43,664 nt of DNA from Akkermansia muciniphila. GTDB lineage: Bacteria > Verrucomicrobiota > Verrucomicrobiia > Limisphaerales > SIBE01. The DNA is taken from positions 1 to 43,664 of the forward strand of contig CAMAWP010000016.1 in NCBI GenBank assembly GCA_945861765.1, given 5' to 3'. Shown piece after piece: positions 87 to 29,462 of this stretch; position 1 is the first letter of the stretch; every line of letters starts with the position of its first letter. Made by a program: the position numbers and the translations under genes. The notes under the pieces were generated by a model, which saw only the letters and a list, made by a program, of their open reading frames with translations, did not search any database and was not told where the DNA came from.

Positions 87-90
87 TCCA

Positions 91-210
91 AAATTCTGAA
101 GAAACCCCTTAAATATGTCATTATTCATCTCTGACCCCATGCTGCCGACAAAATTCTGAAGAAACCCCTTAAATATATCATTATTCATCTCTGACCCCAT
201 GCTGCCGACA
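91..210. repeat. 60-bp tandem direct duplication upstream of the RAYT gene
   Basis: Positions 91-150 and 151-210 are two head-to-tail copies of a 60-bp unit that differ at one base (g at 117, a at 177). The array starts 4 bp upstream of the RAYT start codon, so it covers that gene's promoter and leader. On the minus strand each unit includes TGGGGTCAGAGATGAATAAT. The near identity suggests a recent duplication. Confidence 0.95.
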
Positions 211-8319: not shown

Positions 8320-9087
8320 TCATTGCGTTTCGACCTTGGAGTCGGGATCGCGGTTGTTCTCCATGTTTTGGTGAATCTGGAAGTGCTCGTCCTTGTTCAA
8401 CGGAAATTCGTCGGTGAACTGTGAGTGCTGGTATCCGTGAAGTTGCATCAGCAGCAGGAGCAACCCGGCGAACATCAAGGCCGCGTTTGCCACTTTGCTG
8501 AATTTGGTGAACGAAGCCGTCGTGCGCCAGCCCGCCAGAACAATCCACATGCCGGACAGCGCCACGATTTGTCCCAACTCGACGCCGAGGTTGAAGGAGA
8601 GAATCCGCAGCACCAGCCCATCCTGGCCAAGCGGCAGTTGCTGCAATCGGGTGGAGAGGCCGAAGCCATGAATCAATCCGAACAACGTCACCGCGCCGAG
8701 AAGATGTGGAGATTGGACACCAATGTATTGTTTGAACCCATCAAGGTTATCGAACGCCTTGTAACAAACAGTCAATGCGATGACGGCATCGACAAGGTAG
8801 TAGTTGGCTCTGATGTGGAGCAGCGTGGCAAAAACGAGAGTGACGCAATGGCCCAAAGTGAACGCGGTGATGAACTTCACGATGTCGCCCAATCGCGTCA
8901 GGAAGAACATCACGCCGAACAGGAACAACAGATGATCATAGCCGGTCAGCATGTGGGTCGCGCCGAGCTTGATGTATTCCAGGTTGCCGCCCTCCAGAAT
9001 GCCCTGTTTGTCCGCATCGGAGATGCCGTGGGCGAAAGTGGTCAGCGTTGCCAGCCAGAGCGCGGTGACGATGAGAACGTATTTCAT
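8320..9087 (-). CDS. HupE/UreJ_2 family membrane protein
   Basis: The ATG complementary to 9085-9087 gives a signal sequence (MKYVLIVTALWLATLTTFAHG) and a 255-residue protein with about six membrane helices. The family hallmark is GATHMLTGYDHLLFLFGV (His and Asp in the first helix), followed by FTLGHCVTLV and GLIHGFGLS. HupE/UreJ proteins are linked to nickel or cobalt uptake; the UreJ_2 branch is often encoded beside RND metal-efflux genes. Upstream in-frame codons up to 9153 overlap the end of the czcA-1 gene and lack signal-peptide character, so the shorter start is preferred. The C-terminus is a His-bearing soluble tail (HGYQHSQF ... HFQIHQNMEN). It probably handles the same metal as pump 1. 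Confidence 0.85.
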   Translation of the reverse strand: MKYVLIVTALWLATLTTFAHGISDADKQGILEGGNLEYIKLGATHMLTGYDHLLFLFGVMFFLTRLGDIVKFITAFTLGHCVTLVFATLLHIRANYYLVDAVIALTVCYKAFDNLDGFKQYIGVQSPHLLGAVTLFGLIHGFGLSTRLQQLPLGQDGLVLRILSFNLGVELGQIVALSGMWIVLAGWRTTASFTKFSKVANAALMFAGLLLLLMQLHGYQHSQFTDEFPLNKDEHFQIHQNMENNRDPDSKVETQ

Positions 9088-9118
9088 GGGTGGAGCTTTC
9101 AGGCGGTTGTAGTGCGGC

Positions 9119-12373
<3,255 letters not shown>

Positions 12374-13642
12374 TTAATGGTCGTGGCTGGCGCCGGATTT
12401 CAGGACGTCGGCTTTGATGATGAAACTGTTTTCGGCGGCGTATTTCTGGCCGGGCTTCAGACCAGACACGACTTCGGCCCATTCTCCATCGCGTCGGCCT
12501 AATTCGAGAATCGCGATTTCAAACATTCCGCCGTCCGCCATAAACACCACCTGCCAATCGCGGAAGGTCTGGAGCGCGCTCGCTTTCACGGCCACAGGCA
12601 CTTCAGCTTCCTCCACCACAATTTCTCCGGTCACGAACAAGCCGGGACGCCATACACCCTGGGAGTTTGGCAACTCGACCCGCGCCAGCATCGTTTGCGT
12701 GTCTTCCGCGCCGAAGGGCGATATGTAGCTGACCGAGCCCGTCGCGTTGGTCTTGTTCTCGCCCGCGAAGATGGTCACGGTCTGACCGACTTTCAGTTTG
12801 TCGAAGTCTTTCCGGTTCACATTCAAGTCCACCCACACCGTGCCGAGGTCGGCCACGCTGTAAATCGCCTCGCCTTCCTTCACGAATTCGCCCTGCGTCA
12901 CGTCCTTCTTGATGACTGTTCCGGCGATGGATGACTTCACTTCGTACGGCTGCAAGCTTTCGTTGCTCTCGACAACAGCCACGACCTCATCCTTGGCTAC
13001 GGCGTCACCCAGGCGTTTGTTGATTTTCTTCACGATGCCCGGATAGCGGGGAATGACGTGCGTCATGTGGTCCTCGTTTGGCAGCACGCGACCATTGACT
13101 TTGATGATTGTTTTGATTTTGGCCGAGCCAGCCGATTCGATGACGATGCCCGAATTCTTCACCGCTTCGGGTGTCATGACCGTGCGGCCTTCGTAGGAAT
13201 CGTATTCCCAGCGATGGGTTTTGCCGTTGCGCTCCGCGATGACCTTCACGTCGAACGAGTGCGGTTCGACAATTTCCTGGTCGCCGAGCAGGTAGTCTTC
13301 GCGTTTCGTAAAGCCGATCTTGTCCACGGGCCCGCCGAAGCGGTGAAGTTCAATCGTCAGCTTCACTCCGGCTGGATCAATCGGCTTGTCCTTCTCGTAG
13401 AAGAACACGCGGAACTCCGGTGGAACTCCGCTCTCGAAGATGGTCACTTCCGTTCCAAAATCGCCTTCGCGCAACAGGCGTCCGCCATGCGGACCTTTCG
13501 CAGCCTCGGCGACGGCTTCGGCGCCGTGGCCGCCCTCGCCGGAAACGTCGGACGCGGGTTTCGCGTTTCGCAGCACAAACCAAGTGAGGGCAGTTCCGGC
13601 CAGAAGCACGAGAATTACCGCTGTAAATTGTTTCTTGTTCAT
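12374..13642 (-). CDS. CzcB-type periplasmic adaptor (membrane fusion protein), unit 1
   Basis: With the ATG complementary to 13640-13642 the protein has 422 residues and an N-terminal anchor (MNKKQFTAVILVLLAGTALTW). Residues about 50-160 form an extra N-terminal domain opening GPHGGRLLREGDFGTEV, as in CzcB-like adaptors. The core has the lipoyl and barrel signatures (VIPRYPGIVKKINKRLGDAVAKDEVVAVVES, split by a short hairpin, then SIAGTVIKKDVTQGEFVKEGEAIYSVADL). A beta-barrel and membrane-proximal domain follow, and the protein ends in SGASHDH. It links the CzcA-1 pump to the TolC protein encoded upstream. This is the only full-length adaptor in the window; the other two are much shorter. Confidence 0.93.
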   Translation of the reverse strand: MNKKQFTAVILVLLAGTALTWFVLRNAKPASDVSGEGGHGAEAVAEAAKGPHGGRLLREGDFGTEVTIFESGVPPEFRVFFYEKDKPIDPAGVKLTIELHRFGGPVDKIGFTKREDYLLGDQEIVEPHSFDVKVIAERNGKTHRWEYDSYEGRTVMTPEAVKNSGIVIESAGSAKIKTIIKVNGRVLPNEDHMTHVIPRYPGIVKKINKRLGDAVAKDEVVAVVESNESLQPYEVKSSIAGTVIKKDVTQGEFVKEGEAIYSVADLGTVWVDLNVNRKDFDKLKVGQTVTIFAGENKTNATGSVSYISPFGAEDTQTMLARVELPNSQGVWRPGLFVTGEIVVEEAEVPVAVKASALQTFRDWQVVFMADGGMFEIAILELGRRDGEWAEVVSGLKPGQKYAAENSFIIKADVLKSGASHDH

Positions 13643-13691
13643 AGGCAAAGAGTCGTTCAGTTCGTAATGGAGTGTTTGCAGGCCGGGCGGA

Positions 13692-15068
13692 TCACGGATG
13701 TGAGTTGCCTCCCTCGATGGGCTGACCAATTAGCCGCTCCAACTCCACGAGGAATTGATGATAGGCAGTGGCCGTTTGAATGTATTCCTGCTTGATGTCG
13801 AAGAGCGTGCGTTGCGCGTCGAGGACTTCGAGATAGGAGAACCTTCCCTGGGCAAAGCCGTCCCGCGAAAGTGCCAGCGCGTCCTCCGCTTTTGGCACAA
13901 TCTCCTTTTGCAATCCGTCCATGACCTGAACGGCCCGCGCCATTTCTTCGTAGAGGCCGAGCAGGACCGTGCCGAGGCGAACTTCCGCCGCCTTCTGTTC
14001 CGCCTCCGTCCGGCCCAGCAACGCCCGCGCTTCCGCCATGCCGCCCTGATTGCGGTCAAAGAGTCGCAGCGGCATGGAGAAGCCAAGAACAAGCGCCATG
14101 TCTCCCGGCCCGGCCAGATGGCGAATGCCGCCGCCCACCGCCACGTTGGGAACTCGCCGCGCATCGGCCAGTTTGATTTCCGCTTCGCGCAGTTTTGTTT
14201 CCGAGACCCAGCGGGCGATTTCTGGGCTTCTGGAAATACGATCCACGAGACCTTCAAAAGGCGGGACTGGTTTGCGGGCGAACAAGTCCGCTTCCGCCCG
14301 GTTGAACAACGGTTGGGCATTCCGCCAGCTTGCCGACAATTTCTTGCGCGAGGCATCCAGAATATGGCGGGCGCTTCCCACCAGCATTTCGCCACGAGCC
14401 AACGCGACTTGCGCTTTGCGATCCTCCAAAGCCGAGCCTTTCCCGGCGGTCACGCGTTCCTGCACGATTCGGAGTGCGTCCTCCGCCAACTGCCGATTCG
14501 TCAGCGCCAAATCCAAAGCGTGCTGGTTCGCGACGACTTGAATGAAGCGTTGTGTCACATCCCCCAAGACTTCCACCCGCTTCAATTCATACTCGGATTT
14601 GGTGATGTCTCGCGCCTGCGAGGCGACCGCCGCTCGTGCCGCTCGTTTGCCGCCGAGTTCAATCACCTGGCTCAGTTGCAGCGTGGTCTGAGCCTCACGA
14701 AAACCTCGGGTGTCGCCTGTGCCAAGCACGTCTTCCACTTCCAATCCCAATTCGGGATTCAGCCACAGCCCCGCTTGCAAGACGCGCGCCTCATTGGCCC
14801 GCGTCTGCCATGCAAACGGCGCAAGTTCCGGATTCTCCGTCAATGCCAGCGCCAGCGCCGCGCGCAGTGTTAGCACGCCGGTCGGCTCTCGCATCGGCGC
14901 GGAAGGTTCTCGTTGCTTCGGAATTTCGACTGGCCCTCTAGACGCGGCGCTTTGTGCCTGAGACTCCGGCTGGGAGTGGCTTTCGGCAGGCGGTTTCGTG
15001 ACGCAGCCGGCCATGCCGAAAATCAAACCGGCCACAAACAGGTTTCTGACGGACACAATTCTCTTCAT
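13692..15068 (-). CDS. TolC/CzcC-family outer-membrane efflux lipoprotein, unit 1
   Basis: Starting at the ATG complementary to 15066-15068, the 458-residue protein has a lipoprotein signal peptide ending FGMAGC (lipid-modified Cys22) and a Ser/Gln/Pro-rich linker. Two outer_membrane efflux repeats follow. The first begins LTLRAALALALTENPELAPF and the second about SPEIARWVSETKLREAEIKLAD. Typical markers are LNPELGLEVEDVLG, SQVIELGGKRAARAAVA and FSYLEVLDAQRTLFDI. It forms the trimeric exit duct for the CzcA-1/CzcB-1 pair encoded downstream. Efflux unit 2 has no TolC gene of its own, so this protein may serve both. The small leader-type gene 15169-15552 lies 100 bp upstream. Confidence 0.92.
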   Translation of the reverse strand: MKRIVSVRNLFVAGLIFGMAGCVTKPPAESHSQPESQAQSAASRGPVEIPKQREPSAPMREPTGVLTLRAALALALTENPELAPFAWQTRANEARVLQAGLWLNPELGLEVEDVLGTGDTRGFREAQTTLQLSQVIELGGKRAARAAVASQARDITKSEYELKRVEVLGDVTQRFIQVVANQHALDLALTNRQLAEDALRIVQERVTAGKGSALEDRKAQVALARGEMLVGSARHILDASRKKLSASWRNAQPLFNRAEADLFARKPVPPFEGLVDRISRSPEIARWVSETKLREAEIKLADARRVPNVAVGGGIRHLAGPGDMALVLGFSMPLRLFDRNQGGMAEARALLGRTEAEQKAAEVRLGTVLLGLYEEMARAVQVMDGLQKEIVPKAEDALALSRDGFAQGRFSYLEVLDAQRTLFDIKQEYIQTATAYHQFLVELERLIGQPIEGGNSHP

Positions 15069-15148
15069 AAAACGGACTTTCAACGGACACAATGGATCAA
15101 GGAAACAGAATCAGGGCGTGCGAGCAGACCGTGCGAACGGGGAAGGAA

Positions 15149-15163
15149 TCCTCGGAAAGAGGA
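15149..15163 (-). promoter_or_regulatory. Hairpin directly after the stop codon of small protein A
   Basis: On the minus strand TCCTC TTTCC GAGGA forms a 5-bp stem with a 5-nt loop, beginning 5 nt after the TAA of the upstream small gene. Equivalent hairpins follow small proteins B (19702-19713) and C (29441-29457) at 4-5 nt. In all three leaders a pyrimidine-rich TTCCCCG-like stretch follows. No U-tract follows, so it does not look like a Rho-independent terminator. A role in regulating the downstream efflux genes is inference. Confidence 0.5.
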
Positions 15164-15168
15164 CTCAG

Positions 15169-15552
15169 TTAGGAAGCAAGCGAAGGAGCGCGAACAGGGA
15201 GAGCAGCGCGGAAGGCGAACTGCCAGCTTGTGCCGAGTTCAGGTGGAGGTGGACTCAAGCTTCCACCACCGGGATCGGCATCCGGGTCTGCATTGAGCAA
15301 CAGGACGCACAACAACTCAAGGCTGTGCGAGAGGTCGAGGGAATTGCTTAAAGGGCGCTGAAGTTCCTCGTGGCTGGATTCGATGCGACAGACCCCGTCA
15401 GCAGCCTCGTGGTTCTTGTCCGAATGATCAGACCCGTCGGCATGGGCATGGTCCTGATGAATCAGTCCCAAGCTTTCCAATAGCGGATGCGATGATGCAA
15501 ACGCGAACAGCGTCAACATCAGAATTGCCACTATGGGCTTGAGACATCTCAC
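15169..15552 (-). CDS. Small secreted His-rich protein A, head of efflux unit 1
   Basis: The GTG complementary to 15550-15552 gives a 127-residue protein with a good signal peptide (MRCLKPIVAILMLTLFAFAS). A TTG at 15594 would add 14 residues that weaken it. The mature protein has a metal-binding-like cluster (IHQDHAHADGSDHSDKNH), then a Cys (GVCRIE), a short hydrophobic stretch and a Pro-rich segment. The tail, SWQFAFRAALPVRAPSLAS, is shared almost exactly with small proteins B (19718-20125) and C (29463-29840). All three precede efflux genes on the same strand. I do not recognise an established family; Cys/His-rich DUF2946/CopL-type upstream proteins are the nearest idea. Possible roles are periplasmic metal chaperone or regulatory leader protein. 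Confidence 0.72.
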   Translation of the reverse strand: MRCLKPIVAILMLTLFAFASSHPLLESLGLIHQDHAHADGSDHSDKNHEAADGVCRIESSHEELQRPLSNSLDLSHSLELLCVLLLNADPDADPGGGSLSPPPPELGTSWQFAFRAALPVRAPSLAS

Positions 15553-15642: not shown

Positions 15643-18600
15643 TCATGAGTCTGCGGGGTGAACGGACGATACGCGACTCGGAGATTCGATCCCTCTGCGC
15701 TCCACCCACTCGTAGAGCACGGGCAGCAGGACGAGCGTAAGAAAAGTTGAAGTGATGATGCCGCCGATGACGACGGTCGCGAGCGGGCGCTGGACTTCTG
15801 CACCTGCGCCGGAAGCAATCGCCATCGGCACGAAGCCAAAGCTGGCGACTAGCGCGGTCATCAACTTCGGGCGCAGCCGGGTCAGTGTGCCCTCGATGAC
15901 AGCTTCGCGCACAGTGCGACCTTCACGCCTCAACTGGTTGATGAAGCTGATGAGCATGATGCCGTTCAGGACGGCGATGCCACTGAGCGCGATGAATCCC
16001 ACACCCGCGCTGATGGTGAAAGGCATGTCGCGCACCCACAGCGCGAAAATGCCGCCCGTGACGGCAAGCGGCACGCAGACGAAAATGAGAGCGGCCTGCC
16101 GGAAGCTGCCGAAGCTCAGAAAAATCAGGATGAAGATGAACACCAACGCCATCGGCACGATGATGGCGAGCCGCAGCCGCGCCCGTTGCAGGTTCTCGAA
16201 CTGCCCACCGAACTCGAAGTAGTAGCCGGGCGGAAACTTCACCTCGGCCTTGATGCCAGCGAGAGCCTCTTTTACGAAACCTTCCACGTCGCGTCCACGC
16301 AGGTTCACGAGCACGGCGGCGCGACGCTGGCCGGATTCACGAGTGACTGCGCCGACAGCTTCTAGCATCTCGAAGCGGGCAACTTGACCGAGCGTTAGCA
16401 AGCCGCCTTCGTCCGTCCGCACCGGCAACCGCTTCATCGTGTCCACACTTTGACGGGCAGCTTCGGCAAGACGCACGACGATGGGGAAGCGCCGGTTGCC
16501 CTCGATGATGGTGCCCACTTCCTCGCCCGCCAGCGCCGTGGCAATGGCGCGATTCAGGTCTTCGGTTTGCAGACTGTAGCGGCGGAGCGCGTCGCGGTCG
16601 GGTTTGATTTCCAGCAGTGGCGAGCGACCGAAGGCGTCGAATTCCACGTCGCCGCTGCCGGGAAGTTTGCGGAGCAAGTCGCGAACTTCCGTGGCCAGCC
16701 GCTCCAACTCCTTGAAATCGTCGCCGTAAATCTTCACCGCGATGTCGGCGCGGACGCCCGCCATCATTTCGTTGAAGCGCATCTGAATCGGTTGGGTGAA
16801 CAGATACGTCTGCCCCGGCACATGCACCGCGAGATCGCGGCGCATCAGTTCGATGAGTTCCTCCTTGGTCGCGGGACGGCCATTGATTTTGCGCCACTGG
16901 TTGCGCGGTTTGAATTCAACATAGGTGTCGCACAGGTTTGGCCCCATCGGGTCCACGGCGATTTCCGCCGTGCCGATCAGGCCAAATATGCGGTCGATTT
17001 CGGGGAACTTTTCCAGCAGCCGTTTCTCGGACTGACGCTGCAATTCGGTGGACGCGCCCAGCCCGGCGCTGCTGCTGCGGATGAATTGCAGGAGCATCGT
17101 GCCCTCTTCGAGTTGCGGGATAAACTCCGCGCCCAGCCGCGTCAAGACCAACAGCGACGAGCCGAACAGAACTACGGCGGCTGTGACAACGACCAGTTTG
17201 AACTGGAGCGCCCACGCGAGCAGCGGTGTGTAAACCGCCTTGAAGAAACGCACGAGCCAGTTGTCGTCCTCCTTGATTTTGCCGCGCAGGAAATAGGAAC
17301 AAAGCACCGGCATAAGCGTGAGCGCCAGGACGAGCGAACCGGCGAGCGCGAAGATGACGGTGAGCGCCATCGGGCGGAACATTTTTCCTTCGATGCCGGT
17401 GAGCGCGAGGATTGGGATGTAAACGACTGTGATGATGAGCACCCCAAAGAACATCGGGCTGGCGACTTCCTTCGCCGAGAAACGCACTTCGTCGAAGCGT
17501 TCGGCGGCGGTGAGTTCGCGGCCCAGTGCCTTCTGCTTGTGCGCGAGATGACGGATGATGTTTTCCACCATCACCACCGCGCCGTCGATGATGAGTCCAA
17601 AGTCGATGGCCCCGAGGCTCATCAGGTTCCCTGACACGCGGCTCTCCACCATTCCGGTAACGGCGAAGAGCATCGACAGAGGAATCGCCAACGCAACAAT
17701 CAGCGCTGCCCGCAGATTGCCGAGCAGCGCGAACAGCACGACCACGACGAGCAACGCGCCCTCGAACAGACTTGTCTCGACCGTGTGCAGGGTGCGGTTC
17801 ACCAGGTCGGAACGATTGTAGAGCGGGCGCACCTCCACGCCGGGCGGCAGCTTCTCCTGGATGTGTTTCAGCTTCGCCGCCACGTCTCGGGCCACGATGC
17901 GGCTGTTCCCACCCGCCAGCATCAAAGCGCCGCCGACCACGCCCTCTTCACCATTCACCGTGGCCGCGCCGGTGCGGAAACTCGACCCGATTCCAACCTG
18001 GGCCACGTCTTGCACGAGAAGCGCCTTCGCCGCCCCGGCGAACTTGAGCGGGATGTTCGCAATCTCATCGGTGGTGCTCACTCGGCTGTTGGCGCGGATG
18101 ACGATCTGTTCGCCGCCGATTTCGACCAGCCCTCCGCCGACGTTCTGGGTGTTCTCACCGATAGTGTGCGCTAGTTCATCCATCGTCAGGCCGACGCTCG
18201 TCAGACGCGCCGGATCGGGCATGACGACGATTTGCTTTTCATAGCCGCCGCTCGTGTTCACCTCAGCGACGCCGGGCGTAGCACGGAGTAGTGGGCTGAT
18301 GATGTATTCCTGAATCTGCTTGAGGGTCATCAGTTGCCCCGTTCGCGTCATCGTGGCAGCCGAGGTAACGAGGCTCTGAGTTTCCGCGTTCGTTGGTTTG
18401 AGCCTCCTCACGTCGGATGCAGGAGAGTTGGACGCAAAATCGACCGTGTAGTAGAAAATCTCACCGAGCGCGGTGCTGATGGGTGCAAGCCTGGGGTGCA
18501 GGCCGGGCGGGAGTTTTTCCGCCGCGACCAGCAGTCGCTCGCTCACCAGTTGCCGCGTGCGGTAGAGGTCAACGTCGTCCTCGAACGTCATGCGGATTTG

Positions 18601-18873
18601 CGAGAGGCCGAACTTCGAGAGCGAGCGCAGTTCGATCATGCCGGGCAGTCCGGCCATCTGGCTTTCGAGCGGGAGCGTGACGAGCTTCTCGATTTCCTCC
18701 GGCGCAAGCGCGGGCACGGCAGTGTTCAATAGCACCTGGGGATTGGTGATGTCCGGCACCGCGTCAATCGGCAGGCGTAGGGCCGACCATGCGCCGACAC
18801 CAACAAGGACGAGCGCGGCCAGCAATACGAGCGGCCGTTGGCGGAGCGACCACTCGACGGTCTTGAGTATCAT
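15643..18873 (-). CDS. CzcA-type heavy-metal RND efflux pump, copy 2, with an in-frame palindromic-element insertion
   Basis: A 1076-residue RND pump with helix-4 motif DFGLIIDGAVVMVEN, here D424, D430 and E437. The roughly 20-residue shift relative to copies 1 and 3 comes from an extra segment at residues about 154-174 (DVRRLKPTNAETQSLVTSAAT), encoded by the palindromic element at 18353-18420. The segment lies in the first periplasmic domain just before LMTLKQIQEYIISPLLR and keeps the frame. Otherwise the protein is complete, ending soon after the last membrane helix. It is preceded by its adaptor gene with a 4-bp gap and followed by small gene A. The metal is likely a divalent cation on the same grounds as copy 1. 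Confidence 0.94.
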   Translation of the reverse strand: MILKTVEWSLRQRPLVLLAALVLVGVGAWSALRLPIDAVPDITNPQVLLNTAVPALAPEEIEKLVTLPLESQMAGLPGMIELRSLSKFGLSQIRMTFEDDVDLYRTRQLVSERLLVAAEKLPPGLHPRLAPISTALGEIFYYTVDFASNSPASDVRRLKPTNAETQSLVTSAATMTRTGQLMTLKQIQEYIISPLLRATPGVAEVNTSGGYEKQIVVMPDPARLTSVGLTMDELAHTIGENTQNVGGGLVEIGGEQIVIRANSRVSTTDEIANIPLKFAGAAKALLVQDVAQVGIGSSFRTGAATVNGEEGVVGGALMLAGGNSRIVARDVAAKLKHIQEKLPPGVEVRPLYNRSDLVNRTLHTVETSLFEGALLVVVVLFALLGNLRAALIVALAIPLSMLFAVTGMVESRVSGNLMSLGAIDFGLIIDGAVVMVENIIRHLAHKQKALGRELTAAERFDEVRFSAKEVASPMFFGVLIITVVYIPILALTGIEGKMFRPMALTVIFALAGSLVLALTLMPVLCSYFLRGKIKEDDNWLVRFFKAVYTPLLAWALQFKLVVVTAAVVLFGSSLLVLTRLGAEFIPQLEEGTMLLQFIRSSSAGLGASTELQRQSEKRLLEKFPEIDRIFGLIGTAEIAVDPMGPNLCDTYVEFKPRNQWRKINGRPATKEELIELMRRDLAVHVPGQTYLFTQPIQMRFNEMMAGVRADIAVKIYGDDFKELERLATEVRDLLRKLPGSGDVEFDAFGRSPLLEIKPDRDALRRYSLQTEDLNRAIATALAGEEVGTIIEGNRRFPIVVRLAEAARQSVDTMKRLPVRTDEGGLLTLGQVARFEMLEAVGAVTRESGQRRAAVLVNLRGRDVEGFVKEALAGIKAEVKFPPGYYFEFGGQFENLQRARLRLAIIVPMALVFIFILIFLSFGSFRQAALIFVCVPLAVTGGIFALWVRDMPFTISAGVGFIALSGIAVLNGIMLISFINQLRREGRTVREAVIEGTLTRLRPKLMTALVASFGFVPMAIASGAGAEVQRPLATVVIGGIITSTFLTLVLLPVLYEWVERRGIESPSRVSSVHPADS
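18353..18420. repeat. Palindromic element, copy 1, inserted in frame inside czcA copy 2
   Basis: The plus strand starts GTGGCAGCCGAGGTAACGAG and ends AGCCTCCTCACGTCGGATGC, imperfect inverted repeats of the same terminus found in copies at 23494-23575 and 27927-28012. The interior (TTCGTTGGTTTGAGCCTCC) also resembles the 23494 copy. It is 68 bp, shorter and more diverged than the other two. It is translated as DVRRLKPTNAETQSLVTSAAT in the pump. Confidence 0.82.
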
Positions 18874-19627: not shown

Positions 19628-19701
19628 AACGGACCAAACGGGTTTTACCGACCAAGGGAACACACGCGGCGTGCGACAGGCACACCGCGACCGTGGGAAC
19701 C

Positions 19702-19713
19702 TCCCGAACGGGA
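19702..19713 (-). promoter_or_regulatory. Hairpin directly after the stop codon of small protein B
   Basis: TCCCG TT CGGGA on the minus strand pairs as a 5-bp stem closing a 2-nt loop (or a 4-bp stem with a GUUC loop). It starts 4 nt after the TAA of small gene B and is followed by GGTTCCCACGGTC. Position and context match the hairpins after small proteins A and C. No U-tract follows. Confidence 0.5.
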
Positions 19714-19717
19714 TTCG

Positions 19718-20125
19718 TTACGAAGCGAGGGAAGGCGCACGCGGCGGAAGCGCGGCGCGGAAGGAAAACTGCCAGGAGACGGGCAAATCTGGTGGAGCGG
19801 TGGCGGTTTGAAGGGGTCCAATTTTACCGTGCCGTTGAACCTTCATGATAGAGGTGGTGCAATCGAACAACAGCACACCGGGTGGCGCGATGAGGAGCAA
19901 CTGGTCTTGCTGTGAGATGTAATTGGCGGAAGCCAGAGCGCCGCACGGCTTGTCGCAGTTGCCTGGACCGGGAACGGAATGAGAATGCTCTTTGGAGCAG
20001 CAATCCCGCTTGCCCAGCAAGCCCGATGCGTCAATCAAACAACATGAAGCCGCTGGCACCCAAAGGAGCGCCAGCACCAACGCGACAAATGCCTTGAACC
20101 GCTGCACGGAAAAGCAATACCACAT
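19718..20125 (-). CDS. Small secreted Cys-rich protein B, head of efflux unit 2
   Basis: From the ATG complementary to 20123-20125 the protein is 135 residues. It opens with a signal peptide (VQRFKAFVALVLALLWVPAAS) followed by a cysteine-rich region: CCLIDASG, KRDCCSKEHSHS and NCDKPCGALASANY. The C-terminus is a Pro-containing linker and the conserved tail SWQFSFRAALPPRAPSLAS. It aligns with protein C over most of its length (LAxxWVPxxSxCxLxAxxG, later a C-x-x-x-C element and a YxSxxxQ segment) and with protein A in the tail. The open frame continues upstream to 20557, but that part is antisense to the cupin gene and not signal-like. Probably exported and metal-binding; see findings for a regulatory reading. 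Confidence 0.78.
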   Translation of the reverse strand: MWYCFSVQRFKAFVALVLALLWVPAASCCLIDASGLLGKRDCCSKEHSHSVPGPGNCDKPCGALASANYISQQDQLLLIAPPGVLLFDCTTSIMKVQRHGKIGPLQTATAPPDLPVSWQFSFRAALPPRAPSLAS

Positions 20126-23493: not shown

Positions 23494-23575
23494 GTAGCAG
23501 ACGACGTGAGGAGGCTCTATCCCTCCGTCGCTTCGGTTGGTGTTTCAGTTAGAGCCTCCTCACGTCGGCTGCTAC
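23494..23575. repeat. Palindromic element, copy 2, forming the 3' end of czcA copy 3
   Basis: An 82-bp element with 25-bp imperfect inverted termini: the plus strand begins GTAGCAGACGACGTGAGGAG and its other end is the complement (CACGTCGGCTGCTAC). The czcA copy 3 frame enters it and reads KRSSRREEALTETPTEATEG before stopping at TAG (complement of 23517-23519) inside the element. It ends 8 bp from the start codon of the next gene (23486), so it also fills most of the gap between the two genes. Confidence 0.9.
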
Positions 23576-26500
23576 GTTTAGTTTCAAGCCACTCGTAAAG
23601 CGTCGGGAGCAAAACGAGAGTGAGGAAAGTGGAGGATAGGATGCCGCCGATCACGACGGTGGCGAGCGGGCGTTGGACTTCCGCGCCCGCGCCACTGGCA
23701 ATCGCCATCGGCAGGAAGCCGAGCGAGGCTACGAGCGCCGTCATGAGTTTGGGACGCAAGCGCAGCAGAGAGCCGTCCCAGACGGCAGTGCGCACGTCGG
23801 CGCCGCGCTCCCGCAACTGGTTGAAGAAAGTGATGATCATGAGTCCGTTGAGGACAGCGATGCCGGAAAGCGCGATGAAGCCCACGCCCGCCGAAATGCT
23901 GAACGGCAGGTCGCGCGCCCACAGCGCAAAGACGCCGCCGGTCACGGCGAGCGGCACGGCCAGGAACACCAGCAGGGATTGCCGCACGCTTTGCAGGGCC
24001 ATGAAGATGAGGATGAAAATCAGCGCCATCGCAACAGGCACGACGATGGTGAGCCGTTTCCGCGCTTCCATCAGGTTCTTGAACTGGCCGCCGAACTCGA
24101 TGGTGTAGCCGTCCGGCAGCTTGATTTGCTCCGTGATCTTCTTTTGCGCTTCGAGGACGAAGCTTTCCACGTCGCGTCCGCGCAGGTTCACCATGATGGC
24201 GGCGCGGCGTTGGCTGAACTCACGGGCGATGGCGGCGACTTGTTCGACCACGCGGAAGTCGGCGACCTGGCCAAGCGTGAGCAAGCCGCCGTCGTCCACC
24301 CGCACGGGCAGACGCTTGAGATCGTCGATTTTCTCGCGCAATTCCTCGCTCAAGCGAATCACAATGTCGAAGCGGCGGTTGCCTTCGATGAGCTTGCCCA
24401 CTTCCTGCCCGGCGAGCGCGGCGGTGACCACGCGGTTCAACTCGGCGGCGTGCAGGTTGTATTGGCTCATCGCCTCGCGCTTGGGAACTATTTCGAGCAA
24501 AGGTGATTTGCCGAGCGCATCGAACTCCACGTCCGCCGCGCCGGGAACTTTTTCCAAAATGTCCCGCGCCTCGCTGGCAATCCTCTCAATCACCGCGAAG
24601 TCCTCACCAAAGACTTTCACCGCGATGTCGGCGCGGGTGCCTTCGAGAATTTCGTTGAAGCGCATTTCAATGGGTTGGCTGAACAAATGGCCTTCGCCGG
24701 GAAGGTGCTTGCCCAACTCCTCGGTCATCAGCGCGGCGAGGGCTTCCTTGCCGATGGGTTTGCCGTCCACTTTGCGCCACTTATCCAGCGGATTGAACAT
24801 GATGTAGGTGTCCGCGACGTTCACGCCCATCGGGTCGCTCGCGATTTCCGCCGTTCCGAGGCGGCTGAAGGTGTAGGAAACTTCGGGAAATTTCTCCAGT
24901 AGCAGCTTCTCGCCGCGTTTCTGCATTTCCACGCTGGCATCAATGCCGATGCTCGTCGTGCGAATCATGTGGGTGGCGAACGAACCTTCGTCCAATTGGG
25001 GCACGAATTCCGCCCCCAGCCGGTTGAACACAGAAACCGCCAGGATGAACAAAACCAGCGCCGCGCCGGTGACGACCCAGCGGAAGCCCAGCGCGAAGCG
25101 CAGGATGGGCGTATAGACGATCTTGGCCCAGTTCACGAGGAAGCTGTCCTTCTCCTTGATGTTACCGCCGAGCAGATACGAGCAAAGCGCAGGCATGAAC
25201 GTGAGTGCCAGAGCCATCGAACCGACGAGCGCGAAGATGACGGTGATCGCCATCGGCTTGAACATTTTTCCCTCGATGCCAGTGAGCGCGAGAATCGGGA
25301 AATAGACGACGGTGATGATGCACACGCCGAAGAACATTGGGCTGGCGACCTCCTTGGCGCTGACGAGCACTTCCTGGGCTCGCTCCAGCGCGGTTAACCG
25401 GCGTCCGAGCTTGTGCTGTTTCTCCGCGAGATGACGGATGATGTTTTCCACCATCACGACCGCGCCATCCACGATCAGACCGAAGTCAATCGCGCCCAGG
25501 CTCATCAAATTGCCGGAGACTCGGCTCTGCACCATGCCGGTCATAGCGAAGAGCAGTGACAGCGGAATGGCCAACGCGACGATGAAGGCCGCACGCCAGT
25601 TAGCGAGCATGACGAGCAGCACGACGACGACTAGGATCGCGCCCTCAAACAAACTTGTTTCCACCGTGCGGATGGTGCGATCCACCAGCACGGTGCGGTC
25701 ATAGACCGGGATGATTTGCACGCCCGCCGGGAGTTTGGTCTGAATCTCCTTGAGCTTTTCATCCACACGTTTGGCGACGATGCGGCTGTTTTCACCGGCC
25801 AGCATCAGGGCGGAGCCGAGCACAGCTTCTTCGCCGTTGTAAGTCGCCGTGCCGGTGCGAACGGCTTTCCCGATGCCCACGTCCGCAACGTCTTTGACGC
25901 GCAACGGCGTGGCGCGCGAACCGAACTTGAGCGGCAGCCGCTCGATTTCCTCCACGGTTTGCACCCGGCCCGCCGCGCGCACCGTGACCGATTCGCCGCC
26001 GAGTTGGATCAGGCCACCACCTGCATTCTCGACGTTCTCGCCGATGGCTTCGGCAATTTCACTAAACGACATGCCGACGCTCTTGAGCTTGTCGGGATTG
26101 GGCTGAATGACGATTTGCTTTTCGTAACCGCCGGTGGTGTTGACTTCGGCGAGGCCGGGTGTGGAACGCAGGCGCGGCTTGATGACGTAATCGTGCAGGA
26201 GCTTGAGTTCCATCAACTGCGCCTCGCGCGTGGCGGGCTTGTTCGTAGCGCCCACCGCGTATTCGACGACGTAGTAATAAATCTCGCCGAGGCCGGTGCT
26301 GATGGGCGCGAGCTTGGGCGTGAGGCCGGGTGGCAATTCATCAATCACCGTCTGCAAGCGTTCGCTAACGAGTTGGCGCGAGCGATAGATGTCTGTGCCA
26401 TCCTCGAAGATGATGTTCACTTGCGAGAGTCCGAACTTGGAGAGCGACCTCAACTCCGTCAGGCCGGGGATGCCCGCCATCTCGTTCTCAATCGGAAAGG

Positions 26501-26696
26501 TGACGAGCTTTTCGATTTCCTCCGGGGCCAGAGCGCGGATCGCAGTGTTGATCTGCACCTGGACGTTGGTGATGTCCGGCACGGCGTCAATCGGCAGGCG
26601 CAGCGCGGAGTAAAGGCCGATGCCAACCATGACCACGGTGGCGAGCAGCACGACCACGCGCTGGCGGACGGAGAATTCAAGGAGACGGTTGAGCAT
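23517..26696 (-). CDS. CzcA-type heavy-metal RND efflux pump, copy 3
   Basis: A 1059-residue RND pump, closer to copy 2 than to copy 1. Helix 4 reads [15 protein letters not shown] with D404, D410 and E417, the CzcA proton-relay set. The periplasmic segment EYAVGATNKPATREAQLMELK is the uninterrupted version of the place where copy 2 has its insertion. The last 19 or so residues (RSSRREEALTETPTEATEG) and the stop codon come from the palindromic element at 23494-23575; the native C-terminus probably ended near EWLETK. Unit 3 also has a TolC (28024-29349) and a short adaptor (27191-28027), but a plus-strand four-helix-bundle gene separates them from this pump. Confidence 0.94.
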   Translation of the reverse strand: MLNRLLEFSVRQRVVVLLATVVMVGIGLYSALRLPIDAVPDITNVQVQINTAIRALAPEEIEKLVTFPIENEMAGIPGLTELRSLSKFGLSQVNIIFEDGTDIYRSRQLVSERLQTVIDELPPGLTPKLAPISTGLGEIYYYVVEYAVGATNKPATREAQLMELKLLHDYVIKPRLRSTPGLAEVNTTGGYEKQIVIQPNPDKLKSVGMSFSEIAEAIGENVENAGGGLIQLGGESVTVRAAGRVQTVEEIERLPLKFGSRATPLRVKDVADVGIGKAVRTGTATYNGEEAVLGSALMLAGENSRIVAKRVDEKLKEIQTKLPAGVQIIPVYDRTVLVDRTIRTVETSLFEGAILVVVVLLVMLANWRAAFIVALAIPLSLLFAMTGMVQSRVSGNLMSLGAIDFGLIVDGAVVMVENIIRHLAEKQHKLGRRLTALERAQEVLVSAKEVASPMFFGVCIITVVYFPILALTGIEGKMFKPMAITVIFALVGSMALALTFMPALCSYLLGGNIKEKDSFLVNWAKIVYTPILRFALGFRWVVTGAALVLFILAVSVFNRLGAEFVPQLDEGSFATHMIRTTSIGIDASVEMQKRGEKLLLEKFPEVSYTFSRLGTAEIASDPMGVNVADTYIMFNPLDKWRKVDGKPIGKEALAALMTEELGKHLPGEGHLFSQPIEMRFNEILEGTRADIAVKVFGEDFAVIERIASEARDILEKVPGAADVEFDALGKSPLLEIVPKREAMSQYNLHAAELNRVVTAALAGQEVGKLIEGNRRFDIVIRLSEELREKIDDLKRLPVRVDDGGLLTLGQVADFRVVEQVAAIAREFSQRRAAIMVNLRGRDVESFVLEAQKKITEQIKLPDGYTIEFGGQFKNLMEARKRLTIVVPVAMALIFILIFMALQSVRQSLLVFLAVPLAVTGGVFALWARDLPFSISAGVGFIALSGIAVLNGLMIITFFNQLRERGADVRTAVWDGSLLRLRPKLMTALVASLGFLPMAIASGAGAEVQRPLATVVIGGILSSTFLTLVLLPTLYEWLETKRSSRREEALTETPTEATEG

Positions 26697-29349: not shown

Positions 29350-29440
29350 AGATTCAAAACGGTCGGAACACGGACACGGCAAACCACGACGGAATGAGAA
29401 ACGTGGGCGCGACGAAGCGCCTGTTGAACCGGGGAAATGC

Positions 29441-29457
29441 CCTCGGCGGAAGCGAGG
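29441..29457 (-). promoter_or_regulatory. Hairpin directly after the stop codon of small protein C
   Basis: CCTCG and CGAGG on the minus strand form a 5-bp stem with a 7-nt loop, starting 5 nt after the TAA of small gene C. It is followed by GCATTTCCCCGGTTC, similar to the pyrimidine-rich stretches after the hairpins of units 1 and 2. No U-tract follows. Confidence 0.5.
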
Positions 29458-29462
29458 ACTAA

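Follow-up and report, generated by a model that had tools for sequence, protein, structure and literature searches.

Putative RAPS-tailed arrest leaders with post-stop hairpins upstream of heavy-metal efflux genes in Verrucomicrobiota

The window (the whole stretch of DNA analysed, 43,664 nt) carries a metal island with three pump units, here called A, B and C, each headed by a small leader open reading frame (ORF) whose stop codon is followed by two hairpins, P1 and P2. A heavy-metal P-type ATPase is also found near the window's pumps. The features are listed below:

8320..9153, minus strand: HupE/UreJ protein after unit A, of a Ni/Co-type family
9119..12361, minus strand: unit A CusA/CzcA heavy-metal RND pump
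12374..13729, minus strand: unit A HlyD/CzcB-type adaptor
13692..15068, minus strand: unit A OEP (CzcC/IhpA-like outer-membrane efflux protein)
15115..15130, minus strand: unit A hairpin P2, imperfect (GGTCTG-CTCG-CACGCC), below the model threshold
15146..15166, minus strand: unit A hairpin P1, 8 bp, 2 nt past the stop
15169..15552, minus strand: unit A leader ORF, putative GTG start taken from the alignment column, 127 aa
15181..15225, minus strand: unit A tail resembling arrest peptides, W through RAPS (WQFAFRAALPVRAPS)
15643..18873, minus strand: CusA/CzcA RND pump downstream of the unit B leader
19665..19689, minus strand: unit B hairpin P2, CGCGGTGTG..CACGCCGCG (covariance model 34.2 bits, E 2.8e-7)
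19702..19713, minus strand: unit B hairpin P1, TCCC-GTTC-GGGA
19718..20107, minus strand: unit B leader ORF, putative GTG start, 129 aa, Cys-rich body, C-terminus SWQFSFRAALPPRAPSLAS
23517..26696, minus strand: CusA/CzcA RND pump downstream of the unit C leader
29406..29421, minus strand: unit C hairpin P2, GGCGC..GCGCC
29439..29459, minus strand: unit C hairpin P1
29463..29852, minus strand: unit C leader ORF, putative GTG start, 129 aa, Cys-rich body, C-terminus SWQFSRRTALPVRAPSLAS

The three leaders (127-129 aa) most likely start at GTG (positions 15552, 20107 and 29852), as judged from the leader alignment; in the start column of the leader alignment, V, M and L account for 77, 15 and 5%, fitting GTG, ATG and TTG starts. 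They share the C-terminus ...SWQFxxR(A/T)ALPxRAPSLAS-stop, and when the three are aligned the tail is invariant and the bodies are hypervariable; in each unit a hairpin begins 2-5 nt past the stop. In unit A, RAPS-LAS-stop lies at 15192-15169, and the stop codon TAA (15171-15169) is followed by CTGAGTCCTCTTTCCGAGGATTC. A sequence-only reading of this locus had placed RAPS five residues from the end; read directly, three residues (LAS) follow it. The same reading had described a 5-bp hairpin 5 nt after the unit A stop, of which the TCCTC/GAGGA core was confirmed by script and is lengthened to 8 bp in the fold by the outer pairs GAG/UUC (15166-15146), and the same order at 5 nt spacing in unit C, where the hairpin CCTCG/CGAGG is indeed seen. 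For unit B the 4-nt spacing stands, whereas the fifth pair claimed there would leave a 2-nt loop, the hairpin read here being TCCC-GTTC-GGGA. The second hairpin, P2, about 30-60 nt past the stop, had been missed. No Pfam regulator was found in the window ORFs scanned (the scan was not exhaustive), in agreement with the remark that the island has no visible metal regulator gene.

The unit A leader has a signal-like hydrophobic N-terminus, a His-rich body and a Cys 66 residues before RAPS, and the ATG of its OEP gene lies ~100 nt past the leader stop. Its abundance of His and scarcity of Cys contrast with units B and C, and, taken with the adjoining HupE/UreJ gene, the His-rich body may suggest that Ni/Co, and not Cu, is the substrate. 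Outside the metal island, window positions 89-208 consist of two tandem 60-nt copies that are 98% identical.

In all, 157 distinct leaders were found in Verrucomicrobiota, for which Pfam and NCBIfam name no family. A tail profile finds matches in many genomes from the source's order: by this profile, a leader is present in 120 of 320 genomes of the order and in 12 of 288 sampled across the whole phylum. When contigs of 84,980 species were scanned, matches were almost exclusively labelled Verrucomicrobiota; the few labelled Caulobacteraceae, Rhodospirillales or Gordonia are taken to be mislabelled metagenome bins, an assumption made without a check. Used as a DNA pattern on 313 genomes, the tail gave ~135 matches versus 1 for the reversed control, and the joint observation of tail and hairpin is far beyond chance. 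The genome search was repeated without RAPS because RAPS was in the query that gathered the loci, and about 107 of the 111 motif-free matches fell at places already known, with RAP; the four exceptions are two RAA fragments, one RSPS leader and one match within a 413-aa open frame, where the tail is not shown. When the loci were re-scored with a profile ending ahead of RAPS, 160 distinct leaders emerged; the tail is complete in 157. Two near-identical leader fragments with RAA for RAP (L002, L003; G000:C171, G000:C191) stand at contig ends of the window's own genome and represent either an assembly break or a decayed copy.

In the alignment, the leader start is followed by a basic stretch, a hydrophobic segment ending W-x-P-A-T-S-H-C-x-L-E and, later in the body, the motif D-G-x-C...E-S...Y. 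A hydrophobic N-terminus is present in 87 of 103 leaders, and at least two Cys in 87% of leaders. Counted by distance before RAP, Cys peak at 67/68, 85/86 and 99/100, and 67.8 +/- 2.2 residues separate the conserved Cys from RAP (68 non-redundant leaders). The 38-residue Cys-RAP linker shows 22% identity versus 20% when shuffled; its sequence is thus nearly random and its distance fixed, so that length, not sequence, is conserved. Membrane entry of a helix takes place when it is ~45 residues away from the peptidyl transferase centre (PMC7886326); at 68 residues the ligand would accordingly be periplasmic, as we infer. AlphaFold models a single N-terminal helix in the leader and renders most of the remainder as coil of low confidence (pTM 0.30).

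No part of the leader is better conserved than its tail. RAP is kept in 154 of the 157 distinct leaders, the rest having RSP or RTP (L031, a true RAPS missed by the pattern used, is outside the 154), and the next residue is S in 137, A in 7-8, D in 3, and T, P, C or N in 2 each (n=157). A-site residues that support arrest in ApcA are P, C, N, T, S, G, D and A (PMC7897499), and all seven fourth residues of the leaders fall in this eight-residue permissive set. As far as sequence can tell, the RAPP-like criterion of R-A-P in the P site and an arrest-permissive residue in the A site would be met; the strength of such an arrest is another matter, for in ApdA and ApdP arrest became weaker whichever residue replaced the A-site Pro (PMC7897499), so that RAPS arrest may be weak or tail-dependent. 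The stop codon comes three codons past RAPx in 144-145 of 157 leaders (92%). Many synonymous forms of the Arg, Ala, Pro and Ser codons of RAPS are in use, and selection therefore acts at the peptide level. In proteins of the leader loci, RAPS occurs 5 times versus 9.2 expected, at most a weak hint of under-representation.

Selection on the tail as protein is also what one would expect if the leader were an ordinary exported metal-binding accessory (CzcI/CusF-like) whose tail docks the pump without any arrest, a possibility to which the conserved Cys/His, the pump linkage, and the conservation of W, F and inner R in the manner of a possible binding motif lend some weight. Such a protein would give no reason, however, for a linker random in sequence and conserved in length, for a fourth-residue spectrum that fits A-site chemistry, or for fixed distances from RAP to the stop and from the stop to the covarying hairpins; nor does it explain why the tail recurs by secA, Kef and S30AE genes (see below) that have no pump in common. 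We consider it unlikely, and favour an arrest leader.

Past the stop, 75% of 126 non-redundant loci have a stable P1 (dG < -5), as do only 19% of shuffles and 27% of coding windows, and P1 usually begins 0-3 nt from the stop; P2 is a 9-bp stem ~13 nt downstream of P1, weak in unit A. A covariance model built on 16 loci and searched against both strands of 94 sources matches almost only directly after leader stops, unit B among these. The sequence-only reading had asked for hairpin covariation in homologs, and P1 and P2 do covary: in a sequence-only alignment, both sides change in 7 of 15 pairs (equalled by 1 of 500 shuffles) and 90% of cells pair versus 34-53% when slid, and in a larger, structure-fitted alignment both sides change in 12 of 15 pairs. 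Its prediction that tail and hairpin would be conserved in homologous loci is borne out phylum-wide for both elements.

The leading edge of a stalled ribosome lies at about +15 to +17, and in most loci P1 begins 18-21 nt downstream of the first nucleotide of the Pro codon in RAP. Given this footprint and spacing, P1 would stay folded in front of a ribosome held with RAP in the P site and S in the A site, and be opened by a ribosome that has reached the stop codon; the distance thus fits the earlier suggestion of a paused ribosome with its leading edge at the hairpin base, the arrest itself being inferred. No Shine-Dalgarno (SD)-like sequence precedes the OEP start in 89 of 93 loci. The stretch separating P2 from that start (e.g. 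15068-15110) is strongly enriched in two 6-mers, GTCCGT and TGTCCG, which occur in 22 and 21 of the 93 loci versus ~2 expected. A pairing between TGTCCGT and the 3' side of P1 was weighed and discarded, since presence of the motif does not follow the sequence of that arm: in loci whose arm differs (L036, L019) it may be kept or missing.

The presence of two covarying hairpins in constant positions past the stop could suggest that the RNA alone exerts control, as an attenuator or a protein-binding site, with a leader that only couples ribosomes and an incidental tail. This would leave unexplained the invariance of RAP at the amino-acid level with free codons; moreover, neither P1 nor P2 is called as an intrinsic terminator (the tracts downstream are only ~40% T), and the unit A region has no Rfam family match. 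We regard control by the hairpins alone as very unlikely, and the arrest leader, in which peptide and hairpins act together, remains our preferred reading.

The proteins encoded downstream, 104 once redundancy is removed, include 81 OEP, 12 HlyD and 2 RND, and one Cys-bearing leader (L302) precedes a Zn-ribbon gene. Other targets occur as well, although few loci lie near secA and HPF genes. One Cys-poor leader (L216; G540:C110) ends WQFSLRAALNPRAPCLA-stop 453 nt upstream of secA, which is a SecM-like arrangement in Verrucomicrobiota. Cys-poor leaders with RAPC endings are found upstream of a Kef-type Na+/H+ exchanger at three loci in three genomes (L248, L256, L305), with 0-2 further residues after RAPC. 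Leaders with RAPS or RAPA tails stand upstream of S30AE/HPF-like genes (L306, L233, L237, L240, L196); this assignment has Pfam support for L306 only and rests on resemblance for L233, L240 and L237. The leaders L306, L233, L237 and L240 are likewise Cys-poor.

Tails on Cys-poor bodies near secA and Kef genes could also mean that the leaders do arrest, yet monitor Sec export or membrane state, pump control being a side effect of envelope stress. Against this, the pump-linked leaders keep Cys at -67/68, -85/86 and -99/100 and the D-x-C/E-S/Y motif, while the Cys-poor bodies accompany other genes, so that the body tracks the target gene; we find this account hardly credible, the least so of all, and retain metal as the probable signal read by the pump-linked leaders. 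That one tail is joined to different bodies and different targets is what an arrest module would lead one to expect. It is conceivable, and we propose it only tentatively with the balance slightly against it, that a modular arrest tail, WxF..R[AT]A...RAP[S/C/A]xx-stop, serves on varied bodies as a phylum-wide signalling device that arose in parallel to CruR and SecM and not from them. Cys/His bodies with their 68-residue ruler would then read periplasmic metal for RND pumps, and Cys-poor bodies would serve secA, Kef-type antiporters and hibernation factors.

By combining these observations, we hypothesize, with good though incomplete confidence, that the leader is a nascent-chain metal sensor whose RAP arrest steers the pump genes via P1 and P2. 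The hydrophobic N-terminus would direct the nascent chain to the Sec translocon (inferred), and the Cys/His body would form a metal-ligand site, whose observed spacing of ~68 residues from the arrest motif would let it just emerge periplasmically, by inference, when the P site holds RAP and the A site Ser. The tail, W-x-F-x2-R-[AT]-A-x3-RAP-S, may slow peptide-bond formation there as RAPP/RAPG peptides do, an inference from the shared motif and the residue spectrum, and metal occupancy would alter the dwell time of the ribosome. While the ribosome waits, its leading edge would be just before or on the stop codon with P1 folded; on advancing to the stop codon it would melt P1. Its position would thus be read through P1, P2 and the SD-less OEP start, deciding pump transcription or translation, and metal is expected, by the logic of CutF, to prolong arrest and turn the operon on. 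That the leaders are arrest leaders is likely, the arrest being inferred from their sequences, and a metal response of the pump genes is probable, again by inference; because exported leaders carry stall-like tails and conserved hairpins, the cell probably senses metal through ribosome pausing on the leader. The nascent-chain-arrest idea of the sequence-only reading is in this way supported by comparative evidence, with arrest, metal modulation and the role of P1 and P2 all inferred. To our knowledge, only two worked examples of metal-sensing arrest leaders exist, both for copper; if our hypothesis is true, this leader family extends metal-sensing arrest to CzcA-type efflux and perhaps to further metals.

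Several known systems invite comparison. ApcA (RAPG) and ApdA/ApdP (RAPP) are likewise export-directed leaders that control the next gene with RAP in the P site, but their targets are Sec/YidC and they have no metal body (PMC7897499, PMC10951233); RAPS itself is on record there merely as a natural variant that ApcA shows now and then, with Ser replacing Gly, and as a permissive substitution (PMC7897499). SecM (FxxxxWIxxxxGIRAGP) resembles the leaders in placing a W and an F ahead of R-A close to where arrest occurs and in having a hairpin downstream, and one tail relative (L216) shares its position upstream of secA; it differs in its W-R spacing (8 versus 11 in the leaders) and in RAGP versus RAPS. 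A literature search found no description of RAPS leaders, or of Verrucomicrobiota leaders, of this kind. Such leaders would have escaped a published proteome scan for metal uORFs, which relied on RAPP and RGPP alone.

CutF of Rhodobacter capsulatus is similar in being a Sec-exported Cys leader with a stalling-like C-terminus, metal genes downstream and a stem-loop, and members of the CutF-like set are often found upstream of the OEP of an RND system; they are listed mainly from Pseudomonadota and Bacteroidota, Verrucomicrobiota not being named in the main text (PMC9973294). The leaders meet a loose CutF-like description (N-terminus, Cys, tail and metal gene, with the Sec signal inferred from sequence), but CutF has CxxxC and a proline-rich end in place of WxF..R.A..RAPS. 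The cutF stem-loop hides the Shine-Dalgarno site (PMC9973294), and here such sequestration does not apply: the stem-loops are conserved, and only 4 of 93 starts have an SD-like sequence.

CruR of Bordetella pertussis (DUF2946, PF11162) has RAPP three residues before its end and arrests in vitro; expression downstream requires the arrest tail, and a TonB receptor is regulated through Rho (PMC9426467, PMC12992588). Its Cys motif is 45 residues from RAPP, and its signal peptide is dispensable (PMC9426467). Like the leaders, CruR is a small leader heading a metal operon, with a Cys motif at a fixed spacing from RAP and a long intergenic region; it differs in its RAPP, in a CxxC at 45 rather than about 68 residues, and in lacking the WxF..R tail. 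The combination of CxxC, ~45 residues and RAPP is not met by the leaders, only 2 of 157 of which have RAPP. The PF11162 profile did not match the three window leaders, gave one match at E 0.28 only among 52 leaders, and found none at leader places in relatives; in a profile comparison of leaders with DUF2946, only the signal region aligns (30% probability), and the leaders are therefore not DUF2946 by sequence. Genuine DUF2946 proteins do occur in the phylum (L246, L320-L324, L327), with CxxC and RAPP or RGPP ends. The leaders would thus work like CruR and CutF, with arrest predicted from sequence, yet stand outside DUF2946, and with about 68 residues versus 45 in CruR they offer a test of whether linker length sets the compartment in which metal is sensed.
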